Positions 385 through 42,513 of a DNA stretch of 64,000 nt are shown piece by piece. The position numbers and the translations under genes were made by a program. The notes beneath the pieces were generated by a model that did no database searches, had not been told where the DNA came from, and was given only the letters and a program-made list of their open reading frames with translations. The DNA is taken from positions 13,729,463-13,793,462 of the forward strand of contig NC_036456.1 of assembly GCF_002775205.1 (NCBI RefSeq), read 5' to 3'. Position 1 is the stretch's first letter; every line of letters begins with the position of its first letter. The DNA comes from Xiphophorus maculatus. Lineage: Eukaryota > Chordata > Actinopteri > Cyprinodontiformes > Poeciliidae.

Positions 385-2469
385 ATCTGACCCCTTTTCG
401 TTTCACTCCAACAACATTAAACAAACCTAATCAACACTACGAACCAGCTTCTTCTTCAAAATATTCCTATTTAAACATGTAAACAGTAGATCACGTTATA
501 CACTTGATGTTGAAAAATTACATAACAAAACCATGTAAACAGCTTTTCCCAGGCACTGGCATTTCCACAGCAAGTGTTAAAGTGATCCTTGGTTTGCCAT
601 GTTGGTATTTCCTTTGACAAAGAAAATTCTTGCAAGTTTGCTCCAAGAGGTGACTAAATTAGATTTTCTCTTTTTCTTCGAATGCTGTATAAATGTATTC
701 TGGTAAAAACCGTCCCCTTGTAATACACTTTGCTTCGTAGAGGGTTTGGCTGTTGAGAAACAATTGCTTTCCTGGAGTCTTGGACTGTGTTGAGGTTTTA
801 AATTTTACCCAATTGTCTATGTTTGCCCGTGACGTATGTAATGTGCCAGGCACCCCGTAGACATCTGCACAGCTGAAATATTGGCTCATATTTATACTGA
901 TCTTCTTCGGCTTTTTCTGCATACATACAACTCAGACTAAGAACTTGATGAGTATTCAATTGTTTGTAAAATCTGTTACATATTGTACACAAAATGAACA
1001 TCAACACAAATAAACAATGATTAACTTAAATGGATGTTTATAGCTGTCAGCAGACAAAATGTGAACAAAGGCACTGAATCTCAATCAGTATAAAATCTGT
1101 ACTCCTAAAAAAAAGCTTCTATGTGCAAAGACCTCCTTTTGAGTTATTTTCTGTTTATATTTTTCATTTTTAAGATTTACGGAGGGAACTAAAGCAGAGA
1201 GGTGGCCAACTTTCCTCATGAGAGATTTTAAGCATTCATATAATTTAAATTAGCCAGTGTAACCCAAGCGTATTGCTTTCTTCACCACTGAAACCAAGTG
1301 CGATCAAAATCAGGTTACAGTGTCCACCAGCACCCAACATAGTTTGATTTTGCTTCTTCATGTGATTGCATAGTGTTTTTCTTTTTCTCTGATTTTATAA
1401 ATCAATATATTTGAGCAAAACACAGAGCAAAACAATATAGAAGAGTAAGTACAGTTGGCGCGCTTACTGTTTTAACAAGAACAAGTAAATGTTCAAAAAA
1501 CTTGCGAGTCTCAGTTCAAACTGTGCATCATGTTTCGGAGCACTCTGACCATGCTGGATGAGCTCCACATTGGTCCCCGATTTATCCTGCATCTACATGT
1601 ACACAACAACTTTTTGCCCTCTTTCTTAGCTAGACTTTACTTGATTCAGAGTGTTTGCCAGTGCAATTGGATACCACCTCAATATTTGTTGGGTGGTCAT
1701 AGCAAGGAGAGTCCAGATTCTGTTCAGGGACAGTCCTATTTGCGGCATATTATTTAACCTATTTCGTACTCTTTCAGGCCACTGGAAAAGATTTAATTGT
1801 ATTTCTTTATCCTACATGTGAAAGCAAAAAAGTCCAGCAACATTTTGCCAGCTGACTCTCAGCTTTCCCAGAGTATGTACAGTATATGTACACAAATTCA
1901 CACTGTGAGTGAACTTTTTCAGTATGGAACAGCTTACTTCAAAATAATAGGCAGGCATGTTTAGTAGTAGATTAGTAGATTTTTATTTTCAGTCCCATGT
2001 ATTCATTTCAGTGCGTAAATTTTAAATCGGAAGGGTTTTTTAATGTCATATTGTCCCTTCATTCTCTTCTCATTTAATGCTTGGGGTTTAATTCTCAGAT
2101 CAAGGTACGCCTGGCACAGGTCTCTAGTTCATCACAGTGCAATGCATATTTAGATTTCTTTTTCAGTATTATTTCATAGATGTGATATTATTTCCTATTA
2201 TTAGTAGTAAAAGTATTGCGACTATTACTTATTTTCAATAGGATGAGATCTTATGGTGATAATTGTTTTGTTTGTTTGGGTTTTTTTTTTTTTTTACAAA
2301 TGTTGTGTTTAAATTATTATTATTATTATCATTATTATTATTATTATTTCCACATTTTAAAGGGGGTGGTTGGCTGCACCCCATTTTACCAGCGGAACCT
2401 CAAGGATGTTGTGCACATGCGCGCTGCGTGCAATCTACCGGAGCGCCAGAGGTAGTGAAGGCAGTCCTA
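385..2469. other. Intergenic region, no gene recognised
   Basis: AT-rich sequence between the terminal exon at 250-384 and the next start codon at 2470. It probably contains the 3' UTR of the first gene (AATAAA at 1009-1014). A run of TTA/ATT triplets lies at about 2316-2347. The last 60-70 bases before 2470 become CpG-rich and contain an NRF1-like sequence around 2417-2427, in keeping with a housekeeping-type promoter for the following gene. The short ORFs here have no recognisable motifs. Confidence 0.5.
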
Positions 2470-5400
2470 ATGGCGGAGAGCGTACGGTCGCCTTTTGACT
2501 ACCGGGAGCCACCGACCCTCGACAGCGACGGGGATGGGAGCAAACCGCCGCCACCACGGGGGTGAGTGAGCGCGGCGGTGGAAACCGGTTGGTCGTCGCG
2601 AGTCGTTTTCATCGCATTAAACGCCAGAGCCACATGCGCACGCGCTGGGAGCGTGCGCGTATTTGTAGTTAACGTTAGGACCCAGTGTTCGCGTGCATGA
2701 TTTCGGTGTTGTGTTGCAGAAAACGGAGCAGGGAAAGTGTGTTTTATCTGTTTATTTGCTGCAGACGGTGAAGGTTAAAGGTTGGCGTCTGCCGCCCAGA
2801 CGGCTGGGTCTGCACTGAAAAGGAAACCCGTTTTAATTCAGATGTTTGTACGTCGGAGAAGTCCTCGCTAGCTGCTGCTGGAAGCTAACAGGCTAGCGGT
2901 GGTTTAGCATTCATGTTAGCATTATCCCCGCAGAAAACAGTCGCTCTTAAAACCCCTAAATCAGAAGTCGTCTTCATCCACCAGATTTTAAGAACTGCAT
3001 GTTTTCGAACACATTTCTCCTCAGCTTTGAGCCAACGGCTCACAAATGGCAGGCGTGTTTTTGTGTTGAGTAAACAAAGTTGCTGACCACCAGGAAAAAA
3101 AATGCATCCTAAAACATTTAACTGTCACTGGGCTCAGAGATAAGGGACACGTTGTTGCGCTAATCAGCCTTTTCAAAAGGCAAGTCGCACAGTCTGAGTG
3201 ATTGAATGAAGGGGTGGGGCTACTATTGACGTTGTGATTAGAGAAATCACGACCATTAGCAGCAATTAGCTGGGTTACTCGTTGCATCCTGTTTACCATA
3301 TCAATACCCTGAATTGTCTCCAAAATAAGGCAAGATTTTTGATCAAGCTACTCTTAGATGCATTTTATTTGAACAACAATAGCCGTTAACTAAAAATTTT
3401 ATTGCATTTATTAACCAGCAGCTATGTAAATAAACCTTGTTTTTACTGGGAAGTTTTCATTTCAAGCATAAAAAGGAAAAAAGCCACAACATCCTGGATG
3501 TCCCCATTGACAAACAATATGGGTCATTTGTATTTATCTATTTATGTCCCTTTGCTGTTTTATGCAGTACGGTTAAAAATGGAGTATAATTTACTCCATT
3601 TGCACCACAGATTGGATTCCAATCCCCAGGGCAATATTGTGTGTAATATCTTAATTGCAAAATGAAGAAGCATGGAGAGGTGGCTTAATACAGTTTGATT
3701 GGTTCCAAATCTTTTAAAGTTATCAGTTACAAATAAAGGAATAATGGATGTTATTTTGGCCTATATTTCTTACTTCAAAATATCTTTCTTCTTTTGACAG
3801 GCTATATGGTTTGAGTGCTTTTACTTTTAAAACTTACTGGTTGACCTTTTGCTGTCTGTTATGTCAAGAACTGATATAGACTTGTCTATCATGTTCAGAG
3901 ATCTCCAGAATATGAAAAAGAGAGAGAGAAAGAAACCTTTAAGGGTAAAAAGGTGTACAATAGACGTTGTGTTGTAAATGGATGAGTATTTACCAGCATT
4001 ACTGCTGATACATGGAAAGTTTAATAATCATTTCTCTAGCAGGGGTTTGAAATTCCAATCCTTCACTCCAGTGCCACTTTCCTGCAACTTTTGGATGGAT
4101 TCCTGCTGCAACACATCTGAAACTAAAGGCTGACTTTCCTCCTTGGCAAGTCAGGCCTGTTCATGGACCATTAGAGTCTGAAAATGCATGAACAAACACA
4201 TTTGCTTTGTTTAAGTCTTAGTAAAAAAAATCAAACAATCAAAAATACACTGTGATTTTTGTTCAAATTTTTCATGACATATGACAGTTTTTGCAGTCAG
4301 GCTGAGTCACAGCCTAATTGTGTTTCGTGGATAGTAGTATACATGGGATAACGAGAAGCGCCTCACAACCAGCTCCCAATCAAAATTCACACAGTCGCTC
4401 GAAAATCAAACCTGTTGGAAATACTGGCCGCGCCTTGTGAGAGTGTCGCACTGTTGAAGCAAATTTACCTGAAACTCTTACATTCACTGTGTAAGCAGTA
4501 TAACACTGTTATATATAGTGTTATGTTAACACTATAATGAAATGTTACTTTCATTAAAGTGGACATGTCTCTAAAAAAGACTGAAATTCTGATATTGGAG
4601 TTTGTGAGCTTCAAAGCCACATAAAAATATTGTCCCCCAACCATTTCTTCTTGCTTATTGAATTGAGGGTTCACTCATTTCTCTCACATTAGCACACATT
4701 AATATGATTGTAAATACAAAACTACTTCAGTAAAAGTGTGTTGTTGACTGTAGTGAAGTTAAGACTGCAGTTTTTTTGCACAGAATGCCAAGGATTACTA
4801 AGGTTAGTGTCCTTCTCTGGCGAGGGTCTCATCGCTTCCGGGTTTTCTATTTCTTCTTCTTTTGTAGTTCCAGACATAAGGCTACACGTAAAGTGTATGT
4901 TCGTATGCAGCACATTCCCAAACTTGTACGACACGTGTCACATCACATGTATGTCACTTCCAAGCGTCTGGTCGTACTGTGCGAAAACAAAGTTTGTAAG
5001 CTGTGAATTATAGAAAGTGCCGATGTAGTGGTACAGTACATCGGCACAATATTTACAGAAAATATTGTAGTGTAGTCCCAGCTTAAACATCAATCCTGTA
5101 ATCTTTTCATTTTCAGTTGGAGTCGAAGTTTCTGTCAAGAAATGCGCAGCACATTTTTTCTGTGATGATTGATAACTGTTTGTTTTATTGTTGAATTAAG
5201 TCAATGCTTTCAAAATCAGTTATAGTCTGTTAGTAATATGGGGATTTGCTAAAATTAGAATAAATAAATACATAAATAAAAATCAGTTTGGACCAGTAAA
5301 AACCTGATTGGTTCATATAGTTGAAATAAATTCTTAAAGATGATCTCTTGTTTTTGCTTTGCTCCAGGTGTCTCCTGCACACCTTAATGTGTCTGCTAGC

Positions 5401-8400
5401 TCTGCCAATATTTACAGTAAAAATGCTTTTTATATAATCTTGACTGTACGTTGAACAAAGGCTTTTCTCTTTACAGCCGCGTGTGTGGGAGAAAAAGGAA
5501 GGGCACACCTGTGAAGGTGTGTGATCGAGCGTATGTAACAGAAGATGAGGAGGAGGAGAGCATGTCAGAGCACAGCTACAGCCCGGGTATATATACAAAT
5601 ACAACTTGCCATCTGGTACCACTGTGTATATTCATTGTGCTGTGTTATACCTTCCATTCCAAACATAGCTTCTATAATGAAACCGTTACTTGATCGCAGG
5701 TGACGGCCAGTACCCAGAAGGCGCCGAAGACCGCCTTCCTCCTCCTGGTAGTCCCTACTACCTGCCTGACCCCACTCAGCTCTGGTAAAGAAGACCCTGA
5801 CCACTTTTCTCCGATGCTGACGGAAGCTGTCTCGTTGCTAAACCCACTTCGTGTTTTTCCAGCGTTCCTGAGCTGGGGGAAGAGGGAGCGAGCGGTGTTC
5901 GAGGACCCGTGCTCTTCCACCCGCCTCCCAATTGCCGGATTCGAGAAGTCCACTGTGGTACTCAGGTCCGATTGGTTGTCATAGCAATCCGCGACATTGC
6001 GAAAGGGGAGGAGATAACTGTGGACTACAGCCTGACGGACTGGGGGGAGAACGCAATGGTGAGCAGCTGATAGCATTTTACAGTATTTTCTGTTAAAGAA
6101 GTGATAAGTCCAAGCGAACAGTGAAATATTAGGGATAAAATGGTAATAAAGAATACAATGGTAAAACAATGATTCTCTCACTGAATGTACTCTTATTCAA
6201 AATTGCAGTTATTTTTTACACCCAGAACTTTGGTACTGTTTTACAGTGTGAATATTTAGAATTGACTATTTTAATTACATATAAACAGTCCACTTAAAAG
6301 TTCGCTACATGTTCTAATTTCTATGTACTGTATTCTGTATTTAAATATTTTAGACATTTTAAAGAAGTTGATCCTTTCTGCTTCTCCCGAGTGCATTGTG
6401 TGTTCAGTCTCAGACTCTTACTAGTCTGTGAGATAATTTAATAAATGGCAGCTGTCAAGCATTGTAAATCCGCACATAACAGTAATTATCTATCAATTTC
6501 TGCTGCATGAAGTGAATAATGCTAGTGGCATTATTAAGGCTATGAATTAGGGCTGTGAAAAGCCCTAATTTCAGCTTTTCATCGCTTTTGCATATTTCTA
6601 ACAAATGTTTTGTAAATTGCAATGATCTTGATAACTTTTTGCAAACGGTCATTGGACTAGACATTCATATAAATTACATTTACTTCTTAATGAAATCACC
6701 AGTCCAGTGCAATATAGTGTAGAGCCGTTTTAATAATAGCTAGATGTTTTTTTGAAGGAGCCAAAGAACAACAACAGACGAGTAAAAGAGGAGAATGTAC
6801 AAGGGCACTCGTCAGAATGATTTCCTAAATTACTAAAGACAATCACAACAGATGCTAACTTCATCCTGATGTGTTTTACTCCTGACCACAGGACAGTTGT
6901 AATCTACACCAGTTAATTGTTCTTCTGTTGTGTAACCAGGAGGAAGAGGCTGGCCCTCACCCGCTGTCCCTCTCTGTGTCCGATTACCTCACCCCCTCCT
7001 GGTCACTGTCACCCTCCTCCTCCCCACTCACCCACTCTGAGGCCAGCGACTCAGACCGGGAAGAAGACGAAGAGGAGGAGGATGACGATGATGACGACGA
7101 CGATGAAGAAGAAGAAATTGAGGAGATAAGGGGTCGGATGCTTCGGCGCCGCAAGAAGCGCAAGCTGCCTGCGGCCGTTAATTCCAAGAAGAAGAGCGCG
7201 CCCCCTTCCTCCAGGGGTCCTGGGCGCCCCTGCTCCTCCTTCTCCCGGCCGGGGCCCGTGGCCCCGCCAGCTCGGCCGCTGGCGCCCCCAACAACCAACA
7301 TAAACAATAACATCAACATAAACATCGGCAGCTCCAGCGGCGCCGCTGTGAACCGGCGGCAGCATTGCCCGTACTGTGGCCGCCACTACCGCTCGCTGGC
7401 ACGCCACCTGGAGAAATACCACGGCAACCAGCCAGATGTCCGAACGGCCATGGAGCTGGCACACCTGCACACACACAGCTCCTCGAACGGCAACACGCCA
7501 CACCCCTCCTCGTCCTCCACCTCCGCTCCTCACAGCCACTCCTTCGCCATCCCACAGTCCTCCGCCTCCAACCCGGCTCCGCCTTCGCTCTTCTCCAGGG
7601 AGAGGGAGTCGCCGGCTACGCGCTCGAGCACGGGCAGCGTTTCCTTCTCCCTCTCGCTTTCACCTCCTGCGTCTGCACAGCCCACAGCTGCAAAGAAGGG
7701 GCCCAGCTTACCGCTTCCCGCTGCCAAACTCTCCTCGCCGCCGCTGGTTTCTCGAGTAAAGAGTCCGTCGCCACCTCCGACCCCGGCTTTGAAAAGAGGA
7801 AGGCGGATGAAGAAGGAGAAGCACGAGGAGCAGCAGAAGGTGGAGGTAGAGAAGAATCAAGAGGAGCTGCTGCCGCCTCCCACTCCGGAGCCTAATATTG
7901 ATCCTGATGAAGATCTGGAGCTCAGTGGAGTGGAGGAGGATGCACCAGAGAAGAATGGAGAAGTTGTAAGGTGTGGTTAGATTTTCTGTCTGCCTAGAAA
8001 CATTTATTTATTATGTCATCGATTAATCCACAGGTTTTTCATTTGTCTGTTTATTCCTTTTTACACAGTATTAGACATACATTCAAAGTTGTAAATAAAC
8101 GGTTACATTCTTTTTTAAATAAGAAAAACTACATTTTATCACCTAAAACAATTACTACTCTGAATATGTTTTCTTTTTCCCACCAACTGAACTTTTTTCA
8201 ATCGGTATACTCTAGTTAACAGCTAATTGATTTCTAAATTAGTTGATGATTATTTCAATAATCGATTTAATGTTTCTCAATTTTTCTCTCCAGCACACAC
8301 AGGCATCACATGTCTCCCCTGCTCTCCTCCCTGTCGTGTTTGATCATCTACCTCCGCCGCCAGCAGCATTCCTCCTCCCTCGCTCTGACTCGCTCTCCTC

Positions 8401-10674
8401 ACTCTGCCGAGGCGTGGCGGCTGCTCTGCCACTCCAGCCTCTCGCTGCTCATCCTCTACAACCGACACCGGGAATGCGAGGTGGCCAAGCTCACAATTCA
8501 GGACTACCGCAACCGGATCACGCCGCAGTCCGCCCCCAGCGCCTCCTCTGCCATGGAGTCTTTCTTGTCCCCCTTCGAGCATCAGGTCTTATGCCACCTC
8601 CCACGGGCGGGGGTCCTGGGCAAGCGCGGCCGCGTCCAGCCGCTCATCCTCCCGCCTCACTGCGAGTCCTGCCTGGACCTGCTGCTCCGCACCAGCCCCA
8701 ACGTGGGCGTGGACCCCGAGAGCCCCTACGTCTTCTCCCGGCCCTACCACTCGCCTGCCACTCCGCTCCGCGGCACAGACCTGCTGAGGAACTTGGCTCG
8801 GGCCAGTGGGGCCAAAAACGCCGGGGCGCTGACGGCGACACGAGTGCGGCGGCAGGTGGCCATCCTCACCCAGCTGCTGCTGCTGGAGGACGGAGAAGGT
8901 CCGGGTGGAGCCATCAAACGGCTGGAGGACTTCCTGGAACGGGAGTACCACGTGACGCAGAACTGCTCCTCCATCATACGAGATCCAGCGCTGATGAGTC
9001 GAGTTGGACGCGTCGTTCTCTACGGAGAGAGGGAGGGCGTGCTTTTCAGGGGCATGAGCCTCCAGGACATTTGCCTCGAGTTAGACGGTAAGAAATGCAT
9101 CTAACAGTTTTCTTTTTCTATTTCCAACCCTGTCTGTATGTCGTTTCAGCCAATGATGTAGCTGCACCCAAATCAATAGACACAATGTTAGAAGTTTGTT
9201 TTTGTCAAAATCAGAAAGATTTATGGTGATTCTTTTTTTTTCATTCAGTAAAAAGTGAATAAGTTCTGTAAAGAGAACATTGCAGTACTGCAGTTCTTAT
9301 AAATGAAGATGTTTTACATCTTCTGAGGAAAACTGTTCCTTTAATCAAACACGATTAAGAATGCTTTTCTTTGAATTACACAGGATGCTATTCTTGAACT
9401 TTGATAAATGACTTAAAATGTCAGAAAAATTTCATAAACATTCTGAGACTATTGTATTATAGAGTAAAATAGCACTAATTTCTCTTTCCCTAATCTTTTT
9501 TACTTTCAATTCATTTCTTGAAAAGCATCATTTGAAGTATTTTGATTCATGTCTTGTTCAAAACACTGACTCACTTCTCAGGTCTTAATTTCACTGGAAC
9601 TCCTTTTCTCCCCCAGAAGTACTGGGCAGCTCTGACCTCTTTTGACAAATGGCATGAAAGTGCTATAGTTTTTATCAGGATTTTTCTTTTGTTTGTTTTT
9701 TTTCTTAGAACATTTGAAGTGTGTGTTTTATTTATTTTTTTTGCCTAATTCTTGCTGGTACGCCAAAATGAAATGCAGTCTTTAGAAGTCACCTAAATGG
9801 TACATGGAGTCCATTTCTGGATATCTAATCTCCAGCTGTTTTGTGAAGGCCTCTGATGTTTCTCAGAAAACAATCTGCCTCATACAAACCTAGAAACACA
9901 GCAGATGGGTCAGAGATAAGGATGGGGAGGAGTTTTAAAGCAGAGTTTAGGTAGCGACTAAAGCATTAATCAGAGAAGCAAGCAATGGTGACAGACAAGG
10001 AGCAGGTGAAGACGCTTTTTGAACCGCACATCATCCTAAACGCATAAGTCTCCTGCATTATGCTTTGGGGATGCACATCTTCAGCAGGATCATGTAAGCA
10101 AAGTGTTAAGCATTCAGTCACATTGAAATTTGTCTTCAAACAGTGATGTCTGGCAACTCCGGAGATTCATTTTCAGAAGATTCGGATGCAGATGAAGAGA
10201 AGGAAGACGTAAAGGAGAAGACGGAGGTGATCGTAAAGAAGAAAGGACCGGGACGACCCCCACGGAAGAAACCTGCACCCCTTCCTCCAACCACTGTCAC
10301 CCCACCTGTAGCAAACCCCCAAAAAAGGAGACCTGCTCCAGTTAAATCAGGTAGGTTTGTCAACGGCGACCTTGTGACCTGAAAGGATCTTATACGTGTG
10401 CTCATGGCCTTCATTACACCTTCCCACAGGAAAACGCGGCGTCCTGAAGCGACCCTGGTCCGAGGCGGAGCGCGTAGCTGTGGAGACGCACCTCAAGAAG
10501 AACCTCTTGGACCTGCGTGTCCCAGCCAAGGCGGACTGTGAACGCTGCCTGGAACTCTGCCCCCTGCTGGTGAGCAACCAGCGAGACTGGAGAGCCATCA
10601 AGTTTTATGTCCACAACCGGATTCAGCTGCTGAAGAAGCAGGGGAGGAGAGAAAGTGCTGCTGCAGTTAGCTAG
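2470..10674 (+). CDS. SET-tail / C2H2 / Crypton-recombinase-like nuclear protein
   Basis: Model of eight exons: 2470-2561, 5477-5586, 5700-5784, 5863-6058, 6940-7970, 8294-9087, 10144-10350 and 10430-10674. All phases agree, giving 919 codons plus stop. Seen in order: exon 2 basic GRKRKG; residues about 110-161 resemble the C-terminal half of a SET domain (PNCRI, GEEITVDYSLTDWGEN); a Ser/acidic tract (eight Asp in a row) followed by a basic NLS-like RRRKKRKL; a C2H2 finger starting CPYCGRHY at Cys304; Pro/Ser-rich linker; residues about 510-769 resemble a Crypton-type tyrosine recombinase (NRHRECEVAKLTIQDY, LTATRVRRQVAIL); AT-hook KKKGPGRPPRKK in exon 7; C-terminal KRPWSEAE module. The SET part lacks the upstream half and the NHxC motif, and the recombinase lacks its expected His and Tyr, so a DNA/chromatin-binding role is inferred, not catalysis. 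The frame requires the weaker donor GTGTGG at 7971. AATAAA lies at 10970-10975. Confidence 0.82.
2562..5476 (+). other. Intron 1 of the SET/Crypton-like gene
   Basis: Bounded by donor GGTGAGTG and acceptor TTTACAG. The first 100-150 bases after exon 1 are CpG-rich, so the promoter island probably extends into the intron. It contains a half-MITE-like repeat at about 4031-4170, a small inverted repeat (TATAGTGTTA and its complement around 4514-4536) and a hairpin with 11-bp arms at 5017-5027 and 5037-5047. I see no coding exon in it. Confidence 0.6.
4031..4170. repeat. Fragment of a short interspersed MITE-like repeat
   Basis: The text reading 'ccaatccttcactccagtgcc' followed by 'tcctgcaactttt' and 'tgctgcaacacatctgaa' resembles the outer part of a very common fish non-autonomous DNA repeat. 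A related but better preserved copy lies at 12610-12815 in this window. Family assignment is from memory. Only one end is clear here. Confidence 0.45.
9088..10143 (+). other. Intron 6 of the SET/Crypton-like gene
   Basis: Starts with donor GTAAGA after the recombinase-like exon and ends at acceptor AAACAG. It is AT-rich. I see no gene, no clear repeat and no structured element in it. Confidence 0.6.
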
Positions 10675-13318: not shown

Positions 13319-16300
13319 AGTCCTCCTGCTCCTTCTGTAATTTCGCCACAGGTTCAGTGTTATTTGACTGATCCTGCGCAGGTCTAGGTGATATCGCCAT
13401 CTTTTCTGCGTCACCTTTTCCAGGGTTAAAAAGTGGGAACACTTCACCTGTGAACTTTGCTGCCAGAGATCCAATCAGACATTTTTCTTCCACATTAAAG
13501 AAGGAGAGCTTTCTGTTGTCAAAGTCCAAATACACACCGACTGTTTTTAGTTTTGACTGGACATGAATGAATGTCTCTGGTTCAGTGCTAAACTGAAGAG
13601 TTTTCCCCTGTTTGGTGAAAGAAGACAAGAACCAGAAACCATTTTTTGTGGTTGGAGGGAAACTGGCATCACGAGGGATTTCATGTTTATCTGTAACTCC
13701 GATCCACCAAGACGTCTTGAGGTCTACATTTTCAGTTTGTAAGGAAACCTCCCAGTAGTGTCGTCCAGAAGAGAAGCCAGGTGATCCTCTGACTGCAGTG
13801 AGACAGGTGACTCTGTCTCCATCAGGAAACTTTGCATGAATATTTTCTCTCAGTGTAGAACCCTGTATTGTTATTAGCGGATTGCCTGTGTCCACCAGTT
13901 GAACATTTTCTGTTAAAAATGGAAAATTAGATTATAATCAATAATGTCACAAAGAAAAATGCTAAATAACAATAATATTAACTAAATGTAAAATTACCAT
14001 AATGCTTGGAGGCTTCCGATGGAGTTGCTGGCTGCCATGTTGCTGGACAGAAAAGCAATAGGAAAAAAAACATCTCAGAAATTAGATTTTTCCATTATAA
14101 AGGTTTTGTTTTGACTCTATTAACGCTGGCAGCTTCAAATACTGGGTCCTACCTGCAGACAGAAGTGGTTCATTGTCTAAGGGAAAAATGCAAAATTAAA
14201 TGAATTTTTATTAATTAATGTCACGAAAATAAACAGAGCTTTAAAACCATCTACACTTTTACAGACATTTCTAGTTTGAAGGTGAGATTGCTGAAAGCCT
14301 AACCCACTGTAAAATATGTAATAAGTTAATGTTTTTAATGTGTCCATTTCAAGCCTTCATTCATTTAGAGCAAATCAAAATAACTTGAGTCCTTAAATGT
14401 GCCTTGAGTGGACATGCTGTGAAATAAATAGAAATATACTATACTATATAAATAAATTCTGTTGAACTGAAATTAATTAAACTGACTCAGACATAGAGAA
14501 AGAAATGAATTATGTCTCCTTTCTTACCTTCAGTACTGCTCATTAGTTCAGCAGTTGAAAGATAAAAATACAAACTTTAGGAATTGTAAATCCAGTGTGA
14601 CTTGCTGTTGTAACTGTTTTATATTTGTGGATGTTACACAGTGACTTCTAGGATGGTCTGATCGATAAAGAGGTTCGTATTTTGATATCTAGATGGACGA
14701 TTTGGATTTAATGTACTGAAAGAAAATGTTCTTATTTATTTATTTAGTTATTCTTAGACATTTAAAGGAATTTGATTATTGAATTACCAGTTTCCTCATG
14801 ACATTATGGAAAACTACTCTGGGAAAAACAGATCTAAACTTTTTTCTTAATTCAGGTCTTACATGGTCAAGAGATGAGATTTTAAATCCCAGTGTCAAAG
14901 CAGACTTATTGTGGTAAACTGTTCTTGTCTCAAAATCCTAAATAAACTATACTATAAAGCACATTTGTGGCGGTTAAGTCTGTACAGTATGATGACAAGG
15001 TTGTGGACTATATCTACAATATTATTTCATAATATTTTCAAACCTTCAATGTGTTTATCAATGTTCTAATTAGATGACTTCTAAATGTATTAAGTTGCAA
15101 CAGCTTTTATTTAGGCACTCGATAAAGATAAATCTCATCAATCTTATCAATCTGTTCAAATAGTTATTATTTCAAAGATGTAAATTTTGTTACATTTGTA
15201 CTTAAGTCTGATAACTACTAAACAAAAGTACATGATTGAACCTTTAATAGAAAAACAATGACATTTTGAGTCTGTTGTGTTTTATTTACCACCAGTTGTG
15301 TCATCTCCAGATTTTGACTTGTTAGCTGAAATTAAAATAAATATAATAAGGTTTGAAGTTATTGCTCAATAAAATGTCAGCATTTTTTACATTTCAGATA
15401 TGCATCCTCTCTGGCTTAAATGAAACATTTACCTTTCTTTCTGAAATACAGGAAGTACAAAACTCCGGAAACAACTACAGCTGCCAGAAGTATCCCAAAG
15501 GCCACCCATCCAGCTAACGGCAATGCTGTCTCTAAATAAAGAGCAAATATTGTTCTAATAAACTTCTTTTACATAAAAGACTAATAAAAGAAACTTGAGG
15601 GTAAAACCATGTACCTTCTTGTAATGGTGGAGGATTTTTCAGACACATTCTGGCCTCTTTTGGTGCTTCATTGAAAAGTCCAACAGAGCAGGAGACCTCA
15701 GAAGAACTGGAGACCAGAACCCAACTATGGACTGAATAAAAACCAGCAGAGTTTTTGCTAAACGACACATTAGAAGGGATTAGAGCTTTTTTGCTGTCTG
15801 ACCAGCTCAGCTCAGGCTTTGGATGCCAGCCGTCAGATTGGCAGCTCATATTAACTTTGTTATCGTCTTTCATCACTGCTGACAGGAGAGGGGAGCGTCC
15901 AGTTTCTGGAAGAAGAAGAGGATGATCATTTGATGTAGACATCATTCTGTTTGGTTTTGTTCTTGTTCTGTTTCATGGTTCTCACCTGTCACACTCAGAC
16001 TAATATATTTAAAGTCATAACCGTCAGAGCTCCTGACAAAGCATTTATATTTTCCTGCATCTTCAATTGTGACGTTTTCCAGCTTCAGGCTGACATCACC
16101 TGCCTTTAATCCACCTGATGTTTCTTCCTTTAAGCCGAATGAGACTCGGCCAGCGTACGAAGCTTTCTGGGATGAGTAGTTGAAAGCCTTTTCCTTAGAA
16201 AGGAGGGGAGGAGTATCAAACTCATCATTCCAGTGATTCCAGCGTACCTCCATATCTTCTGCACTCTCAGAGAAAGTGAGCCAGCAGGGTAAGATGGCTG

Positions 16301-17516
16301 TCTGGCCTCGCTGGACTGAGACATGAGACTTTACTGATACAGTGAACATCTCTGAAACTGAAAAGAAAAGAAAATCATAATCAGAGTCATCTTTTCATTT
16401 TGCTGTGGTATTAGATTAAATATGTTAAGTGTTTCAAAGTAAAACATTCCCTTGATTTCAAGTCTGTCTTAGGTTTTTCAGTAGACCAAATGCTTTATAT
16501 TAAATAATTTCCCAAACAATAAATAATGATAGTTGCGGTTCAATGCATGGTAAACATAAAAAAAAGAAAACATCAAAATGTTTTTGTAAACCAGTAACAT
16601 TTACAATGTGGTTGTGAATGGATATTTTTGCTGTTTGTAATACATTTTTCTATACTGCTGGTTTCAAAAGATCACAATAGTTTTATTTAGTAATGATTTC
16701 TATGTTATTATGTTAACAAAAACACACAATTTCATTATAACAATCTGATTCAGTTATTTATTTAAATTAAAAGGTGTGTCCAAACTTTTGGTCTGTACTG
16801 TATGTCAATTAATATTTGTGTGTGTGTATTCCATCTTAAGTCCAGTGTACACTAGTTTATTTTTTTTTGCTTTTTACTACCAATAGATGATACATGGATA
16901 TATGATAAAATTTAACCATCACTATGAGAAATGTATTGATTTATGACAGGTGTGTGAATGAGCTAATCTTCTCACTATTGATTGCAGCAATCCACACTAT
17001 TACCAGAAATTCAGGGCCCCAAAACCATATTTCGCTTAGGGCCCCATGGAGGCTTTGGCCGGCTCTGATTAGGATCAGAATCCAGTTTGAGTGTACATAC
17101 AAAGAATTTGACTTTAGTCCTATAAATGCTCTATAAAAATTTTAAGATCTGGTGATCAAACCAAGGATTTGTCAGGAGAAGCAAGTCACTTTAAACCGAT
17201 AAGTGAAGACGTCATGCAGACAAGGACTTTTAGGGGAATACTGCGCTATAAATAACGATGTCGGGACTTACCGGGAGCAGCGTATCCAGGTGAAGAAAGA
17301 AGACCCAGAAACCAAAAACAAATCATCCGATTACCTGGGATAGAAAAAAATATCAATAAGAAACTGTCCGAGCTATAAGAGGACTGTGTGTCAATCCTCT
17401 TTGTAAGAGAAAAACAAACAGGATGGACAACTCATGACATGAGACCAGCTTTACAGAATGAAATCTAGGCCATATTTACCTGTTAAAGCAGCGATTGTAA
17501 CTCTCGGTTTACCCAT
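13317..17516 (-). CDS. Butyrophilin-like receptor with B30.2 domain, copy A
   Basis: Exons in transcript order: 17516-17480, 17334-17272, 16357-15986, 15905-15615, 15531-15433, 15325-15290, 14176-14153, 14042-13998, 13909-13317. Apart from the 37-bp first exon and the last, all exon lengths are multiples of three and all junctions are phase 1, giving 519 residues. Order: signal peptide around MICFWFLGLLSSPGYA (an internal ATG could be the true start), IgV exon (Cys in LPCW and GKYKC, DxGxYxC signature), IgC exon (GWHPKPELSW), membrane helix in the exon starting ETALPLAGW, three small cytoplasmic exons, then PRY-SPRY (GRHYWEVSL, LDFDNRKLSF, PLFNPGKGD). Family knowledge: butyrophilins and BTN-like proteins are surface receptors that modulate T cells. 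A 27-bp exon present in copy B has a mutated acceptor here (14555-14556). Which BTN-like member this is cannot be told. Confidence 0.88.
14528..14554 (-). pseudogene. Relict cassette exon of butyrophilin-like copy A
   Basis: The equivalent of copy B exon 24107-24133 (27 bp). Its length, frame (AAELMSSTE) and the donor GTAAGA are intact, but the acceptor dinucleotide on the minus strand is AA instead of AG (plus-strand TT at 14555-14556). Normal inclusion should therefore fail. Skipping keeps the frame because the exon is nine codons. An in-exon AG at the ATGAG triplet could be a cryptic acceptor. Confidence 0.7.
16765..16810. mobile_element. Solo end of a Tc1-like transposon
   Basis: The text 'aggtgtgtccaaacttttgg' followed by 'tctgtactgtat' matches the characteristic outer terminus of common fish Tc1-like elements. 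I did not find the matching opposite terminus nearby, so this appears to be a truncated or solo end inside the first introns of butyrophilin-like copy A. Identification is from memory. Confidence 0.55.
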
Positions 17517-17702
17517 TGGGTTCCAGTGAATCAAAAGTTGACTTAAATATAGCCACTAAAAAACGGTGATGATTCCTCCTGACGAGGCGAGTTTTAGACG
17601 TGATTCAAGTCCAGGAGGGACGATCTGATACCTGCTCGCTTCTGTGGCTTGGCTATAATAAAACAAGACGTGAAACAGACGTAAAGAGAACGCTATGTCT
17701 AC

Positions 17703-17712
17703 TTTCTATTTC
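17703..17712 (-). promoter_or_regulatory. ISRE-like motif upstream of butyrophilin-like copy A
   Basis: On the minus strand this reads GAAATAGAAA, matching the GAAANNGAAA core of interferon-stimulated response elements/IRF sites. It is 187 bp upstream of the first ATG. The paralogue has the same type of motif at an almost identical distance (27759-27768). Confidence 0.5.
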
Positions 17713-19756
17713 CGTATGCAAATGTGGTGGGATGGTGTTCTACACTCCCAACTATGTGCACCAGGTGTAGCAAGAAGCGCGCAGTTGATTGGTGGGCGGG
17801 GCAGATAGGTTTATAGCTGAGCAGGTGTGTGTGTCTTTGTTTCCCCTACTACATGTCGGCTGCCCAAGTGGCTGGTGTGCTTGATCCGCTCATCTGAATC
17901 GTAAGTGCCATTTGTACCATCTGTAGTAGGCCTGAAGCAATGTTTTTAAAAGAGAAATGTTTTAATGAAATTGTTTAAATAAAATAATGTGGACTATTCT
18001 GTGTTCTGGTGCATCTTGTTTTAAAAAGATCTCCCCCTCCCCCTCCCCCCCTTCCTGGTCACACAAATATGTAACCAAACTTGTTAAGCCACTATTCATA
18101 AAAAATCCCTTAAAAAAGAAAATGATGCTTGGATGCCTATGACTGAAAAAACTTTCAATAAGGTTTACAGCTTCATTACAATTCCAGTAGCTTATTTAAA
18201 AGGTTACAAATGATAAATGTTATTTAAAAAAAAAAAAAAGTAAGATATCGTCAGTTAATTGAATCACAAACAGAAGAAAAAAAACTGAAGATTTCACAAA
18301 AATATTTTTCTTACACAGATTTAACTGTGTAGTAGTTTATAAAAACGTTGCTCTATAGACAAGATGTCCCAGAAAAAAACCAAAAGACACGCCTACTCAA
18401 AACAAATAGAAATCAACAACAAAAACAAACACAATGGATAAATAAAAGGGTCCTATGCAGAAATCTTTATTCAAGTAAGAACAGGACTACTTCAAAAATT
18501 ATTTTAACTTAGAAGAAAGAAAAAAATCAGTAATCTAAAAAAATACTGGAGGAGGGAGACTTTACAACTGAGAACTAAAATTGGTACTTTAAAAGATAAA
18601 GTAAAAAATTTGTGAGACTAACTAAAAATATCACCACAAAAAAATTTATGCAGGCAGAAGAAACTGCCTGAATCCATATTTCTTTTGAAACCAAGACTCA
18701 CAGAAGTTAATGTGTACATAAAATACTGTGCAAACTACTGACAGTGATAAATAAGTGTTTTACAGCATATCCACTTGACCTCTAAATGGGTCAAAAGGCT
18801 CTGCAGACTGAGTAACATTATAAACAGGAAGCCTGTGTGCAAACCAAAAGTCTGACTTTACTGTAAGCAGCAGGTGTGTTTCTGTGTTTGATGCATTTTT
18901 AGTTAAACTATGTTTCTTCTTCATTCGTGAAGTTACTACAGGCAAGTAGAGTAGTCAGAAACTGTACTCAGACAAGAGCAGCTTTACTCCAAATTAAAAT
19001 TTCTGAAGTAGAAGAAAAGTGTTGAAAAACTATTGAAGTGTCTTTTTAAGTCCTTTGTTCTAGAGAGTCTCTTGAAATCAATGCTATCGGCCGCAAATTT
19101 GGGATTCCAGGGATGAGAAGGTTTTACAAACTTTCATTATGTTTTGTTTACTGGAGTGAACAAAACATAATGAAGAAACATGACATATTGTCAATTTTAA
19201 AATGTACATTTCACAAACCAAAGCCTCGGCAACCAAAAACAACCTGGAACCTCCTGCCGGTGACCAGTTTGGTCACACAATGCTGTCAAATGGCTCCCAT
19301 TCTTAACATGCATGTAGATCTTCCTCATAAATGTGACACCATTTCACAGGGAAAAAAATGGTTTTCCAAGAGTATAATTTTTGTTGCCAACAAGCATTTT
19401 TACAACAAAGAAATAGACATTCTCATACAACATTTCGTTTCTTTTTGTGATGAATACTTAATTATTACTTTTCTCATAACGAGGAATCTTAAAGTTGTAG
19501 AACCCGACTACAAATATCAAGTCTATTGCAAAATGTGCTCCAGTCAACAGAGAGCAACGTTCCTCTGCAAAGACTCTTTATTGTAACTCACAACTACATA
19601 TTTGGAGTTAATTTACAGGCTTAAACAAGAACAAAACATTTTTCATTTTATTTATTGTTGTTTTCCTTCATACTTCTACACTCAGTAAAAATATCCTGCT
19701 TGTTTGTAAATATGCTAAACTTTGACACATTATTCTAAAACCTTTGACTGTCAGGA

Positions 19757-19830
19757 GCTGAAATTACTGACAGTGATCTGTCTGCTGTTCCTTGGTCCTC
19801 ATGATGCTGTTTGTTCTCCAACAAAACTCT
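19757..19830. mobile_element. Scrap of a Tc1-like transposon
   Basis: The text 'ccttggtcctcatgatgctg' followed by 'tttgttctccaacaaaactct' closely resembles the 5' leader of a widespread fish Tc1-like element just upstream of its transposase start (antisense here). Only this short piece is recognisable. The assignment is from memory. Confidence 0.5.
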
Positions 19831-19954
19831 AAGACCTTGTTGGAAAAACTGCATTTAAAGTATTTAGATTGTTTTATTCAACAGACTCATGGTCCACGTA
19901 GATATATATAAAAAAGAACAAAGACATGACACACGACAACACATAAAAAAGCAA

Positions 19955-20640
19955 AGATTAACCTTCTGCATGCTAGCTTTTTAAAATGTGCACCAGAAAG
20001 GGGCTGTGTACAGGGATGTACAATAAGCTTTGAACAGACTTATTTTTATCTCGTCGGTACACATATGAAATTTTCTCCCCGGAATTTGCATGGGCGTACA
20101 ATATCTGACACTGCCGATAAATTTCATCATCATCACAGAACTAGTCTGTGATGTAGTGACCCAGATATTTAGTTCCTGAACAAACATTTAACTTTCGTCC
20201 CAACAGAAAAAAAATCAGGAAAACAAAGTTTTTTGTCTGCCTTAGTCCTTCATTACAGTTTTTTTAGCATCAAACTGCACATCAAACCTTAACCCATAAT
20301 CAGAGCAGATATTCAGTAACTGCTGAAAGTCAGCACTGCTGGTGAGAGAACAGCTGGTCATCAGCATACATAAAGTGATTGACCAGAGTATCACCGAGCA
20401 AACATCCAGTTTTAGAGGTTCATTTCTTTTGACACGTCATCAAGTTAAACAGGGAAAGTGAAAGAAGCCCATCCTGACTCACCATTACTCTGCCAAAACA
20501 GGCAGAGATGTTATTGAACCTCTTTACCTGCATTTTCTGGTTAGAATACCAGTAAACTAGAAATGCTATAATACTATCTGCAATCTCCAGTCTCTTGATG
20601 TTTTCTGTGTTGATTCATTGTTTTTGTCTTAAAAAAAAAA
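19955..20640 (-). mobile_element. Non-LTR retrotransposon fragment (reverse transcriptase)
   Basis: On the minus strand, allowing for stops and frameshifts, the sequence reads as a LINE reverse transcriptase. The text FLVYWYSNQKMQVK lies near 20520-20570. CLLGDTLVNHFMYADD, with the catalytic-type YADD box, lies around 20360-20410. YGLRFDVQFDAKKT follows, and then KFHMCTDEIKISLFKAYCTS at 20020-20090. The frame is interrupted repeatedly, so the copy is dead. The layout suits a Rex-type element, but the family is not certain. Confidence 0.75.
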
Positions 20641-22938
20641 AACAAACTTCATAGATTCATAAAATTCTGCATTGAAAAGAAATTTTGCCATCCACTTTTT
20701 AAAATGATCCAGCCACCATTTTAGCAAATAAATGTCTAGTTTGACCTTTTTTCCATGTAATAAATCATTTTCACCGTCAGCATTTGGAGTAAAAAACTCA
20801 GACCATATAAATCGATACCAATTATCAAGTAATACAAATCAAACATTTTAACATTTTTAATGTGTTAGTTTCTGTTTGTTGTGCTATTGGTCTTCTTAAA
20901 CTGCTTATATTTTAACAATCTGATCAATCTTCTGGGCTCCAATAATATAGAGGAATATTCTTCCTCTCTTCAACTGAACTCTGAACAAGAATCCACAAAT
21001 AAAATTATCGAAACTTAGTTTAATTAATCATAATTTGTAATAAGTAAATTGCATCCTTAATAAAATATATTTTCGATTAGCCTTCAATAATTTGAACACA
21101 GAAACCATGTCTGAAGGCAAATAGGTCTATATCTGGTCTATTTCAGTTAATTCTAATTTTTATATTGTTATCCCAGATTTATTTTTGGAATCATGTTATA
21201 GAATCTAAATTATAATCTATTTTATCCACATTAAAAAAGCTCCTGAAAGTAAGTAAGAAATTTTGATGACTTTTCTTGATTGTAAGGTAAAATTTATGTA
21301 AAACAAAAAAAGATGGCAGACAGATTATAATATTTTTCTTTATTTTAAAAAAATTAAACCTGGTGAATATGTCTCATACAATGTTCTGAAATCTTCAGTT
21401 AGAAACACAAAACATTTACAACAAGAGGTGGTAAAAAAGTGAAGGGACATAGAGTGCACACATATTTACAGTATCTTCTATTGTTCCTTCAAATTTTAAT
21501 CTAGTTATTATCTAAAATTAAAAATCAGCACAATCTGAGTACAGACTGACACAAAAAGCTTGCAGAATATTCCACCTCAGTGTCACATTTTTAAATGTAT
21601 TTTGTGCTAATTATGGTAATTAACAGTTTTCAAACATTTCATGCAAGTTTGATTGATTGATTATAAAAAGTCAATTTTTCAACAAGCTGTAAAAAGGTTT
21701 TTACATTTGTGATTGATGTATCATGGCCTGTAAATAGTTAAAGTTGAGACTCGAAGGAACTTTTCATGATACTGAGCTGCCATAAAATAAATAATTCATG
21801 CTTTTCCATTCTTGTGGCTAAAATGTTTCAGGTATTAAAGTGTATACATGTTCTCCCAATGCTTTGAGGCCCCAACAGGCTCTAAAGAAGTGATAAAATC
21901 TATTAGAATGGCTTCTGAGTCGCCCCTGAAATATGTATATCCATTAAACATCATATACAGACATATAAAACAAATTAGTTCAAGTTAAAGTCAAATTAGC
22001 TTCCAAAACATCACTTTGACAGCTACTCCAAAGAACATACATTTTATAGATGGTAAAATGTGAGAATAGGCAGCTTTGCATAGCCTCAAAATATAATAAC
22101 ATAACAAAAATATTTATAACAACCCATATAAAAGGTTGTATTAGTGTCTGTTGACAAAAAGAACATTTTACAATAGTCAGGTTTACAATAGGTATCAAAG
22201 TCAGTTAATATGAACTTAGAAAAATGACTTGTAACACATTAGAGGACCAGGTTAACGATGAGTAAATATTCACTGAGCGTTACAACACATTTAAACATTG
22301 TTTATGAATCTACACATGTACCAAAGACAACACACGAATGTACATTTATTTTACTGATCCAGTAAAGTTAATATTCAGAGAAAGCAACATGTGACTCTAG
22401 TGATTAGTTCACCGATTGATTCTCAGTTATGAATCCAGGATTTAAAGACGTGCAAATTTAGGGTTAGACAGTTGGTGCTAATTGAGAATTCATGACTTAT
22501 ATTTGTAAAAACATCAAGGAAATAATAAAACTTTCTTTGGAGCGAGAAGTTTTATTTTCTTTGGTTGGGTTTATCAGAGTTGCCTTTAACTGCAGACGCA
22601 ACAGAAACTGTATGTGAAATGATGGAAGATATTTAATTAAACATTTTCTTGTTGTGTGAATCACTCACTGATGAAAGCTCCAGCATCAGTGAGTTCAGAC
22701 ATAAACACAACTTGCATTTTGTGAAGACATTTAATGTTTCTCAAGAGAAACTGTTACCATTGATGTTGATCTTAAATTTCAGAAAATCTAAGTGTTCAGC
22801 TTATACAACTTTTTTGTACTTTCTTAAACTTTGAGTGCAACAGGTGCATTTTAATCAAAATAAATTTTTCTACTGATTATTAACTTTTACTTTGGACTTT
22901 GCTGCATGCAGGACAACATTACACTTTACACAACACTT

Positions 22939-25900
22939 TTAAATTTCTTCCTCTGGATTCTCAGTCATATCTGATTGGTCCTTCTCTGCCTTTTGTAATT
23001 TCGCCACAGGTTCAGTGTTATTTGACTGATCCTGCGCAGGTCTCTGTAATATCTTCATAGTTCCTTGATCACCTTTTCCAGGGTTAAAAAGTGGGAACAC
23101 TTCACCTGTGAATTTTGCTGCCAGAGATCCAATCAGACATTTTTCTTCCACATTATAGAAGGAGAGATTTCTGTTGTCAAAGTCCAAATACACACCGACT
23201 GTTTTTGGTTTTGACTGGACATAAATGAATGTCTCTGGTTCAGTGCTAAAATGAAGAGTATCCTCCTGTTTGGGGCAAGAAGACAAGAACCAGAAACCAT
23301 TTTTTGTGGTTGGAGGGAAACTTTCATCATGAGGGATTTTATGTTTATCTGTAACTCCGATCCACCAAGACGTCTTGAGGTCTACATTTGCACTTTGTAA
23401 AGAAACCTCCCAGTAGTGTCGTCCAGAAGAGAAACCAGGTGATCCTCTGACTGCAGTGAGACAGGTGACTCTGTCTCCATCAGGAAACTTTGCATTAATA
23501 TTATCTCTCAGTAGAGAATCCTTCATATCGTCTGAAGGATTCTTCATTTTTATTAGCTCATTTCCTGTGTCCACCAGTTGAACATTCTCTGTTAAAAATG
23601 GAAATTTGATTATAATCAATATAATAATGAAGAAAAATGCTAAGTAATAATAATATTAAATAAATGTAAAATTACCATAATTCTTGGATGCTTCCAATAG
23701 AGCTGCTGGCTGCCATGTTGCTGGATAGAAAAGCAAGAAGAGAAAATATCTTAGAAATATGATTTTGTATTATAAAGGTTTCGTTTTGATTATATTAATA
23801 TGTGCAGCTTCAAATACTGTGTCCTACTTGTTGATAGAAGTGGTTCATTTTCTGAAAGAAAACACAAAAATACATGATATTATAGTTGTTTTATGCAGTG
23901 AATACAACAAGAGCTTTAAAATTATCTCTATGAGACTGAGGTTCATCAAACATGCTGTTTTTTGACTGAAAATCTGAACAACACTATAAAGATATGTAAT
24001 AAATGTATGTTTCCATTGCTCTCCTCTCATGTCTTCAAACATCTAGAGAAATCAAAAACAATAAGCGTCCTTCATAAGTAAATATGAATTACTCCTTCGG
24101 TTTTACCTTCAGGATTGCTTGTGATTTCGGCCCCTGGAAGATAAAAAATAAAACTTTAGGAAGTGATTCTGACCAGTCCTTTATTCTCATATCTGTTTTG
24201 TGTGTGATGACGCTACACAGTGACGTTTTCGGTCCAGTTTTGACAGCTATATGGACAATTTAGATTTCATTGTTTAAATTTAAAATTTCTTATTTCTAGA
24301 CTTTAAAAAGAATTTGATCATTGAAATACCAGTTTCAACATTATGTTATGAAAGACTTACTAATTAGATGACTTCCAAATGTATTTGTACCATTTTTGGG
24401 GGAATAATAGCATAAACTTTATGCTATTATGCTGTAAAGGCAGCTCCATAAGTTTTACAATTTTGTCAGATATTTGAAAACCATGTATTATTTTTCTTAA
24501 TATTTCCAGTGATGGACTACACAATATTGTTTTATAATATCAAATCTTCTCCCATAACACACATTCAGTCATGTGATAAAATGTGAAAGAGGGATGCAAA
24601 TAATTTTGCAAGGGGCTGTATGTGTCTCTATTGCCTTATATGTGGACATATTTCATGTTTTATAACTGTGTTAATAAACATCACAAGGGTTTTGCTCCGT
24701 ATTAAATTCACAAAACTATTAATTAAGTCTGAAAACTGCACGAAAGGTAAAACTACATGATTGTTCCTTTAGTATAAGGAAAGTGACATTGAGCAGAAAG
24801 TTTGTAAAACTGTTCTAAATAAATATGTTTAAGGTGCCTGAAGTGTTTCTTACCATCAGTTGCATCATTTCCTGATTTTGATTTGTTGGCTGAAATGAAA
24901 ACATATTACAAAGTATGAAATTAGTACTCATTAAAATCTCAGCATCTTTAAATGTTGTCATCAATGCATGCTCTCTGATGTAAATCAAACATTTACCTTT
25001 CTTCCTGAAGTACAGAAAGTACAAGGCTCCGAGTGCAGCTAAAACAGCTACCAGAAGTAACCCAAAGGCCACCCATCCAGCTGAGGATCCTGACTCAGAA
25101 TAATATATAACAAACATGTTTTAGTAAATTTCTTCCTCATAGAAAACTAAAGAATACATGGTGATAAGGCTGAACAAGATCAGAAAGCCTTGCAGTGGCT
25201 ATAATAATGGCAAATATTTTGATGACATATCAGGTTCTATATGTGCCTGTTTTTTCTTTTGACTCTTTTCTGTCCTTCTTTCTCTGTGTGACCTTTAGCA
25301 TTTTTGGTAAAGTCAAGTGTGTCAATATATTTGACACACATCACAATATAATTGTGATATATTGTGCAGCCCCAGAAGTGAAACCATGTACCTTCTTGCA
25401 ATGGTGGAGAATTTTCCTGGCGCATTCTGGCCTCTTTTGGTGCTTCATTGAAGAGTCCAACAGAGCAGGAGACCTCAGAAGAACTGGAGACCAGAACCCA
25501 ACTATGGACTGAATAAAAACCAGCAGAGTTTTTGCTAAACGACACATTAGAAGAGATTAGAGCCTTTTTGCTGTCTGACCAGCTCAGCTCAGGCTTTGGA
25601 TGCCAGCCGTCAGATTGGCAGCTCATATTAACTTTGTTATCATCTTTCATCACTGCTGACAGGAGAGGGGAGCGTCCAGTTTCTGGAAGAAGAAGAAGAA
25701 GAGGATGATCATTTGATGTAGACATCATTCTGTTTGGTTTTGTTCTTGTTCTGTTTCATGGTTCTCACCTGTCACACTCAGACTAATAGATGCACTGTCA
25801 TAATCATCAGAGCTGCTGACATAGCATATATATTTTCCTACATCTTCAATTGTGACGTTTTCCAGCTTCAGGCTGACATCACCTGCCTTTAATCCACCTG

Positions 25901-36300: not shown

Positions 36301-36618
36301 ATTCCAAAATCCTCGGACCAAAACCTCAGGTGAAAAGTTTAGGCTTGTTTTCAATAAGTTGAAGTAGTAATGATGCGTTCAGTGAGGCTCAGTGTGTCTT
36401 CATGTCTCCAGGGTGTGTACATGGGCTGGCTGACCGCTTCTGGGAGCGGGGCGCGAACACTCGGCCCCATCTTCGTCTCCCACGTCTACACCCTCCTGGG
36501 ACCTCGCTGGGCCTTCGGCCTCATCTGCGGTATGGTGGTGTTGGGCGTCATCCTCCTCCTCTCAGCCTACCACAGACTCATCGCCTTTTCTGTTCGCCAC
36601 GGAAGGATCGTGGAGTAA
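30398..36618 (+). CDS. mfsd8: MFSD8 (CLN7), lysosomal major facilitator protein
   Basis: Twelve exons: 30398-30453, 30585-30667, 33386-33429, 33861-34101, 34219-34332, 34422-34566, 34975-35033, 35479-35587, 35702-35836, 35925-36028, 36115-36329, 36412-36618. All phases agree, giving 503 residues, close to the mammalian protein (about 518). The N-terminus carries an acidic dileucine lysosome-sorting signal (DTTPLL). MFS features follow: helix 1 [19 protein letters not shown], the loop-2/3 region [15 protein letters not shown], and [20 protein letters not shown] with [14 protein letters not shown]-type helices. A lumenal loop holds NNS and NGT glycosylation sites and the paired Cys text GCPYEQTWC. 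The end is [19 protein letters not shown] and an FSVR-type tail. Family knowledge: an endolysosomal membrane protein implicated in chloride transport; loss of the human gene causes neuronal ceroid lipofuscinosis type 7. Exon 6 starts at 34422; a second AG eight bases inside gives the wrong frame. Confidence 0.96.
31030..31580 (-). mobile_element. Decayed Tc1-like transposon in mfsd8 intron 2
   Basis: The text 'gaatttactttcttatgaaa' followed by 'agaggactttagaccactga', and 'actctgaacaaccagtttct' with 'agcagtcttcctcaagattg', matches the antisense strand of the same Tc1-like family as the copies at 11.8-12.5 and 47.6-48.0 kb. Fragments of transposase are recognisable but no open frame remains. 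Ends are approximate. The insertion is inside the 2.7-kb second intron of mfsd8, antisense to the gene. Confidence 0.7.
32857..33260 (-). mobile_element. LINE (L2-type) reverse transcriptase C-terminal fragment
   Basis: On the minus strand, 33235-33005 reads [19 protein letters not shown] and [20 protein letters not shown]. 33108-32857 reads [26 protein letters not shown] and [15 protein letters not shown]. These are hallmark blocks of the end of the ORF of fish L2-like non-LTR elements (LDYCN, QLQxIQNxAAR, APxLWNxLP, FKxxLKTxLF). The two frames overlap and the part between RQLQLIQN and AAFRFYAP is largely deleted, so the copy is 5'-truncated and dead. It lies in mfsd8 intron 2. Confidence 0.82.
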
Positions 36619-42413: not shown

Positions 42414-42513
42414 NNNNNNNNNNNNNNNNNNNNNNNNNNNNNNNNNNNNNNNNNNNNNNNNNNNNNNNNNNNNNNNNNNNNNNNNNNNNNNNNNNNNNNN
42501 NNNNNNNNNNNNN
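42414..42513. other. Assembly gap of exactly 100 N
   Basis: The run of N is 100 bases long, a length commonly used as a placeholder for a gap of unknown size. It interrupts the ninth exon of the TTC31-like gene. The flanks share no obvious sequence. The real distance and even the adjacency of the two sides cannot be judged from the window. Confidence 0.95.

Follow-up and report, generated by a model that had tools for sequence, protein, structure and literature searches.

How does a single fish gene come to hold, in one reading frame, part of a SET domain, a C2H2-type zinc finger, what looks like a tyrosine recombinase and an AT-hook-like motif? Such a gene lies at positions 2470-10674, on the + strand, of a 64,000-nucleotide stretch of the Xiphophorus maculatus genome (C14:13729463-13793462; this whole stretch is the window in what follows), and an earlier note on this DNA had proposed that chromatin-type modules, the SET part and the finger, were fused here to a domesticated Crypton recombinase. 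We suggest instead that the gene probably descends from one SET-bearing Crypton-type element, its modules spread over several exons, that was domesticated as a unit, and we put the probability of this reading at about 0.68. We favor it because mobile relatives elsewhere in this genome encode finger and recombinase within a single frame, with a tail module downstream and, in several cases, a SET exon upstream, and because the SET, recombinase and tail exons of these relatives have splice phases in common with the gene.

The gene and its second copy

The gene is made up of eight GT-AG exons (Table 1). A scan of splice borders, covering ±6 bases around the exon boundaries first set by eye, left exactly two chains open throughout, one of 919 codons and one of 918, with a tandem AG at the acceptor of exon 5 as their sole difference; this bears out the proposed chain of eight exons with consistent phases and one frame of 919 codons. 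The junction between exons 5 and 6 has a GT donor, an AG acceptor and equal phase both in the gene and in a second copy on contig C5. Judged by its sequence, this is a real and intact multi-exon gene with a CpG-island start.

The C5 locus holds counterparts of exons 2-8 in the same order and, as read by eye, in the same phases. The two copies are 89% identical over 46 codons of the SET part, with a rate of nonsynonymous change (dN) of 0.05 and saturated synonymous change (dS), 73% identical in exon 6 (dN 0.19, dS 1.26, dN/dS about 0.15) and 81% identical in exon 8 (dN 0.14, dS 1.28, dN/dS about 0.11), and only 38% and 48% identical in exons 5 and 7. The SET stub, the recombinase-like domain and the tail are thus constrained between the copies and the long linkers are not, and both copies are under purifying selection. 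In a tree they form one group (100/100). Few loci, an intact frame, purifying selection and the loss of residues needed for transposition, all of them marks by which a domesticated gene is recognized, are found together here.

As the earlier note had claimed, one C2H2-type finger can be read from the sequence of exon 5, and a partial SET domain is present: exon 4 matches positions 71-105 of the 105 in PF00856 (E 5.5e-8), the last third of SET. The match is confined to these positions, so that neither the cofactor-binding SET-N part nor SET-I was found in the gene, and the SET-N exon of a relative (element L033) used as a query found no match within the window at E 0.01. There is no second finger in residues 336-505, since this stretch contains no cysteine. 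The AT-hook was accepted in part: a motif can be read by eye in exon 7, where Pfam finds nothing, and its GRP core is also present in exon 7 of the C5 copy, though the exon is so diverged. We dropped it as evidence of a fusion, since exon 7 is an additional exon, in phase 1 at either border. The tail encoded by exon 8 is helical in a predicted model (mean predicted local distance difference test score, pLDDT, 69), and its likeness to homeodomains is not significant.

Mobile relatives and their modules

Our own-genome searches covered 704 Mb in 101 contigs, with only the best candidates scored, so that the counts are lower bounds. Exon 6 was recovered at at least 27 places, namely the gene, its C5 copy and at least 25 others at 20-40% identity; of these others, two belong to a single element and at least 19 have open frames of 600 amino acids or more. 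In these relatives the finger and the recombinase share one open frame. Among 13 element loci, selected by their match to exon 6, a finger query derived from element L031 matched all 13, the finger of the gene 11 (E 0.05), its recombinase 12 and its tail 11. The tail lies within 5 kb downstream of the recombinase on the same strand in 21 of the 27 places listed, and the recombinase is upstream of the tail in 23 of 32 tail places, the gene and its copy being included in both counts. The donor of the recombinase exon has phase 1 at the matching place in the gene, the copy and elements L023, L024, L029, L031 and L033, and the acceptor of the tail exon has phase 1 in the gene, the copy, L023, L024, L025 and L026. 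One further element, L027 (C12:6105000-6114999), has three tail modules in succession downstream of one recombinase frame.

The element copies that we compared are 98.6-99.3% identical, which suggests that these relatives moved recently. Copies of a family with a 689-amino-acid frame on C11, C22 and C4 are 99.1-99.3% identical over 8.9-9.7 kb; all three have a right end that runs into (TG)n, in which the C11 copy has its left end as well. In a 630-amino-acid family the C8 and C7 copies are 98.7-99.1% identical along some 7 kb that include a broken SET stretch, and no microsatellite was seen at the right end.

In an alignment of the element proteins, the residues R-K-R-H-Y are kept in order in the families of 630, 689, 703 and 719 amino acids, within the motifs NRRR.GEV, GKRGRK, STKLRKH or STQLRKH (with Thr or Ser in the place of the box-II His), GHDI and VHREFYRL or similar; the diverged frames of L027, L028 and L031 show changes in these motifs, and the L033 frame is partial. 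Aligned with them, the gene keeps the box-I arginine, the lysine and the box-II arginine and has ER for GH and serine for the tyrosine, and the C5 copy has ER and threonine, so that the histidine and the tyrosine are gone from both. If the recombinase assignment is right, the product of the gene therefore cannot be a working recombinase.

Several relatives also carry a SET exon. That of L033 is KMT5A-like, with KMT5A (SET8) as its best match in PDB (E 3.2e-10), and in the own-genome search it matched at 26 places. In 11 of them a recombinase or tail follows downstream on that strand, where chance would give 0.03. A twelfth was added by a further search, and the twelve correspond to about five families, since near-identical copies were counted several times. 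One of the SET matches lies upstream of L026, at C20:29170165. Four pairs of SET with recombinase or tail within 20 kb have another arrangement. As 11-12 of the 26 places have a recombinase or tail downstream of the SET, this genome offers a ready-made source of a SET exon. Exon 4 of the gene and three element SET exons have acceptor phase 2 and donor phase 0 in common, as well as a PNC motif followed by 41 residues to the donor (a length fixed by the search pattern, the element donors themselves being read by eye), and their lengths are one codon apart.

Another eight SET places, of equal score and 67% identical to the SET of L033, lie on eight contigs (C19:10699256, C22:1675627, C4:17457134, C5:1239046, C9:19484873, C14:25519910, C18:32307371 and C8:26956299); they perhaps belong to another element with a KMT5A-like exon. 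The remaining SET places are one on C100 and five others, which may be host SET genes.

Origin of the gene

A number of observations weigh against the domestication of one element as a unit, and we set them out here with the alternatives that they would favor. For exon 6, searches of Pfam (no match in exons 6-8), PHROGs and PDB sequences, PDB hmmsearch included, with the gene and with the elements gave no significant match; the best PDB hit of exon 6 (E 0.022) is an unrelated synthase, and a single-sequence AlphaFold model (pLDDT 38) is too poor to use. We compared profiles by hhalign with E. coli XerD, XerC, FimB and FimE and with a set of 84 Xer-type sequences, using 150 column shuffles per target, and obtained probabilities of 0.9-19% against known recombinases, one single comparison giving E 0.0012 at a probability of 19%. 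A five-row profile of elements only scored 29.0 and 20.3 against the two targets, and the profile evidence for recombinase kinship is weak because 1/150 and 7/150 shuffles scored as high. Exon 6 might then stem from another kind of mobile element and encode a domain with no kinship to tyrosine recombinases, a reading that we nevertheless hold to be quite improbable, as a nine-row profile (seven elements, the gene and the C5 copy) scored 32.1 and 29.1, above shuffle maxima of 25.7 and 24.0 (0/150 each), and so exceeded 300/300 shuffles against only 292/300 for the five-row profile. Furthermore, one alignment places the lysine of the element GKRG, the box-II arginine, the histidine of GH and the tyrosine exactly on XerD K172, R247, H270 and Y279, with an H-to-Y spacing of 9 in both; two other profile alignments to Xer have H and Y displaced by one column, and a box-I R-x-x-E likeness, outside the aligned stretch, is seen by eye. 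Motifs, residue register and a weak profile match thus point, if weakly, to recombinase kinship. The recombinase fold on which the earlier note had staked its proposal accordingly found no support in Pfam or PDB sequences, none either way from the AlphaFold model and a little from the Xer profiles, while of its domesticated Crypton-type core the intact gene stood firmly and the recombinase likeness only as far as these motifs and this profile carry it.

The other observations of this kind concern mainly the SET exon. The stub has KMT2B as its best PDB match (E 1.1e-4) with KMT5A far weaker (0.13), only 16 of 44 residues are identical to the L033 SET, and it was not recovered among the 26 element-SET places at E 0.01. 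In one copy of the 689-amino-acid family no SET was found in the roughly 8 kb that precede the finger, nor was one found in the upstream stretches of L027 and L028 that we looked at, and no recombinase or tail was found near the eight equal-scoring SET places. In addition, the gene falls within no element family in the tree and has a long stem, and the splice sites in the elements were read by eye. The distant stub and the families with no SET upstream would fit a fusion in the host, in which a Crypton-type recombinase with its finger and tail was domesticated, while a methyltransferase gene of the host independently contributed the SET exon. We regard this as unlikely, though less so than a non-recombinase origin of exon 6, in view of the phases and PNC-to-donor distance that the three element SET exons have in common with the gene and of the many places with SET upstream of recombinase or tail. 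The same arrangement in the relatives, with the finger inside the recombinase frame and several SET exons of the same phase upstream, also speaks against the earlier view that SET and finger are chromatin modules added to a Crypton. Very improbable, and dropped, is a decaying pseudogene, as both copies keep an open frame and splice sites, dN is well below dS in three modules and a CpG island is present. Least probable of all is that the gene still encodes a working recombinase or is a transposon copy that arrived recently. The near-identity of the element copies might be cited for this, but the gene has lost the tyrosine, the histidine and the second finger, and its closest relative is a single copy, diverged and with exon phases equal to its own.

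If the gene was indeed domesticated as a unit, its ancestor would have been a Crypton-type (tyrosine-recombinase) element that already encoded SET, finger, recombinase and tail on several exons, and this element would have been captured by the host with its introns. The N-terminal SET exon would have been lost, together with the second finger and the stretch between finger and recombinase, and so would the His and Tyr needed for strand transfer, leaving the gene that is now present in two copies. Module order, exon phases, residue changes and constraint are read from the sequences themselves; from them we infer descent as a unit.

Possible function, known systems and the rest of the window

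The finger, the recombinase-like domain, the AT-hook-like motif and the predicted helical tail are all likely to meet DNA, and together with a SET stub that has no cofactor-binding part they lead us to lean, with modest confidence, towards a nuclear DNA- or chromatin-binding regulator. The protein would bind DNA through finger, recombinase fold, AT-hook and tail. Its SET stub would offer a surface for contacts, with no catalytic role, and the protein would thereby regulate chromatin or transcription. The stub is under stronger constraint than any other part, which suggests that it serves a protein contact and is not decaying. More speculatively, and in our own estimate doubtful, fish would harbor tyrosine-recombinase transposons with a KMT5A-type exon of their own, one of which was taken whole with its introns and duplicated, and the stub, its most constrained part, would now recruit chromatin factors, perhaps to silence living relatives that finger and recombinase fold still recognize.

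Domesticated Cryptons are already known. The DUF3504 genes (KCTD1, KIAA1958, ZMYM2/3/4, QRICH1 and WOC) are described by Kojima and Jurka (2011; PMC3212892), who argue for DNA or protein binding by the DUF3504 domains. These genes resemble the one here in that an inactive Crypton-type recombinase, its catalytic tyrosine lost, stands next to other modules. According to that paper, however, the human DUF3504 genes have all lost the second arginine, which is kept here, and these Crypton-derived genes share just the recombinase domain with Cryptons, no similarity being expected beyond it, in contrast to the present multi-module gene, into which the tail and, it appears, a SET exon were carried too. 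The parts of PMC3212892 consulted do not name the present gene. The earlier note had set it beside the group of ZMYM2, QRICH1 and KCTD1 as another domestication; we abandoned membership of that group, as DUF3504 (PF12012), by which the known Crypton genes are recognized, has no match in the gene or in the frames of six relatives, and the 17 matches of an own-genome DUF3504 search include none at the gene or at any listed element place. As to position, the SET, finger and recombinase frames of L031 (C13:13561000-13570999) lie between two DUF3504 loci (C13:13536718-13575125), and on C7 a recombinase frame and a DUF3504 locus are within about 50 kb of each other (6.46 and 6.51 Mb).

SETMAR consists of a host SET gene fused to a mariner DDE transposase. 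It is thus likewise a gene that unites SET with transposon-derived sequence (PMC2200798 lists it as a SET and mariner transposase fusion gene), and it differs in that the SET exon here seems to be element-borne and is only a stub. KMT5A is likewise comparable through the SET exon of L033 and differs in that the gene retains only the last third of SET, closer to KMT2B. CryptonV elements are recombinase-encoding DNA transposons, some of which insert in microsatellites (PMC8869645, PMC5753468), as the 689-amino-acid family appears to do; the accessible portions of these two papers mention no SET exon, and we liken our elements to CryptonV by description, not by sequence. In open-access PMC text, judged mainly from listings and the starts of abstracts, we found no report of a SET-bearing Crypton or of such a gene, which may be annotated elsewhere. 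What would be new is that several element modules were kept along with their intron phases, and a histone-methyltransferase-type exon that is apparently element-borne would be an unusual tool for a DNA transposon. Since relatives with long frames and near-identical copies are present in the same genome, the ancestral type of protein, its target sites and the tamed protein can be compared directly.

Table 1. Features of the gene in window coordinates, with the evidence for each
Feature	Position	Strand	Evidence
CpG island over exon 1, likely promoter	2201..3000		CpG observed/expected 1.1-1.26 in covering 400-base windows, against 0.45 for the whole window
Exon 1, start codon, residues 1-31	2470..2561	+	Boundary scan; no counterpart identified in C5 copy
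Exon 2	5477..5586	+	Boundary scan; C5 copy 74% identical over 31 codons, same phases
Exon 3	5700..5784	+	Boundary scan; C5 exon of similar length and same phases, little sequence likeness (by eye)
Exon 4, C-terminal part of SET; SET-N and SET-I absent	5863..6058	+	PF00856 at 5927-6031; PDB
Exon 5, acidic and Ser/Pro-rich linkers, one C2H2-type finger at 7351-7422	6940..7970	+	Boundary scan; sequence
Exon 6, tyrosine-recombinase-like domain, box-I R at 8469-8471	8294..9087	+	Alignment with element proteins; hhalign with XerC/XerD/FimB/FimE
Exon 7, acidic stretch and AT-hook-like KKKGPGRPPRKKP at ~10235-10275	10144..10350	+	Sequence, by eye
Exon 8, helical tail module of ~80 residues, then stop codon	10430..10674	+	Boundary scan; C5 copy; mobile relatives; model

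Elsewhere in the window, positions 13320-26207 on the - strand hold two copies of a butyrophilin-like set of Ig V-set, Ig C-set and SPRY exons, the Ig exons being identified by Pfam in one copy and by eye in the other, and SPRY by Pfam in both. Major-facilitator transporter exons, which we take to be MFSD8-like, lie at 33822-36359 on the + strand, with PF07690 on the first frame and nothing on the second. The only run of N in the window, a gap or withheld stretch 100 in length, is at 42414-42513.

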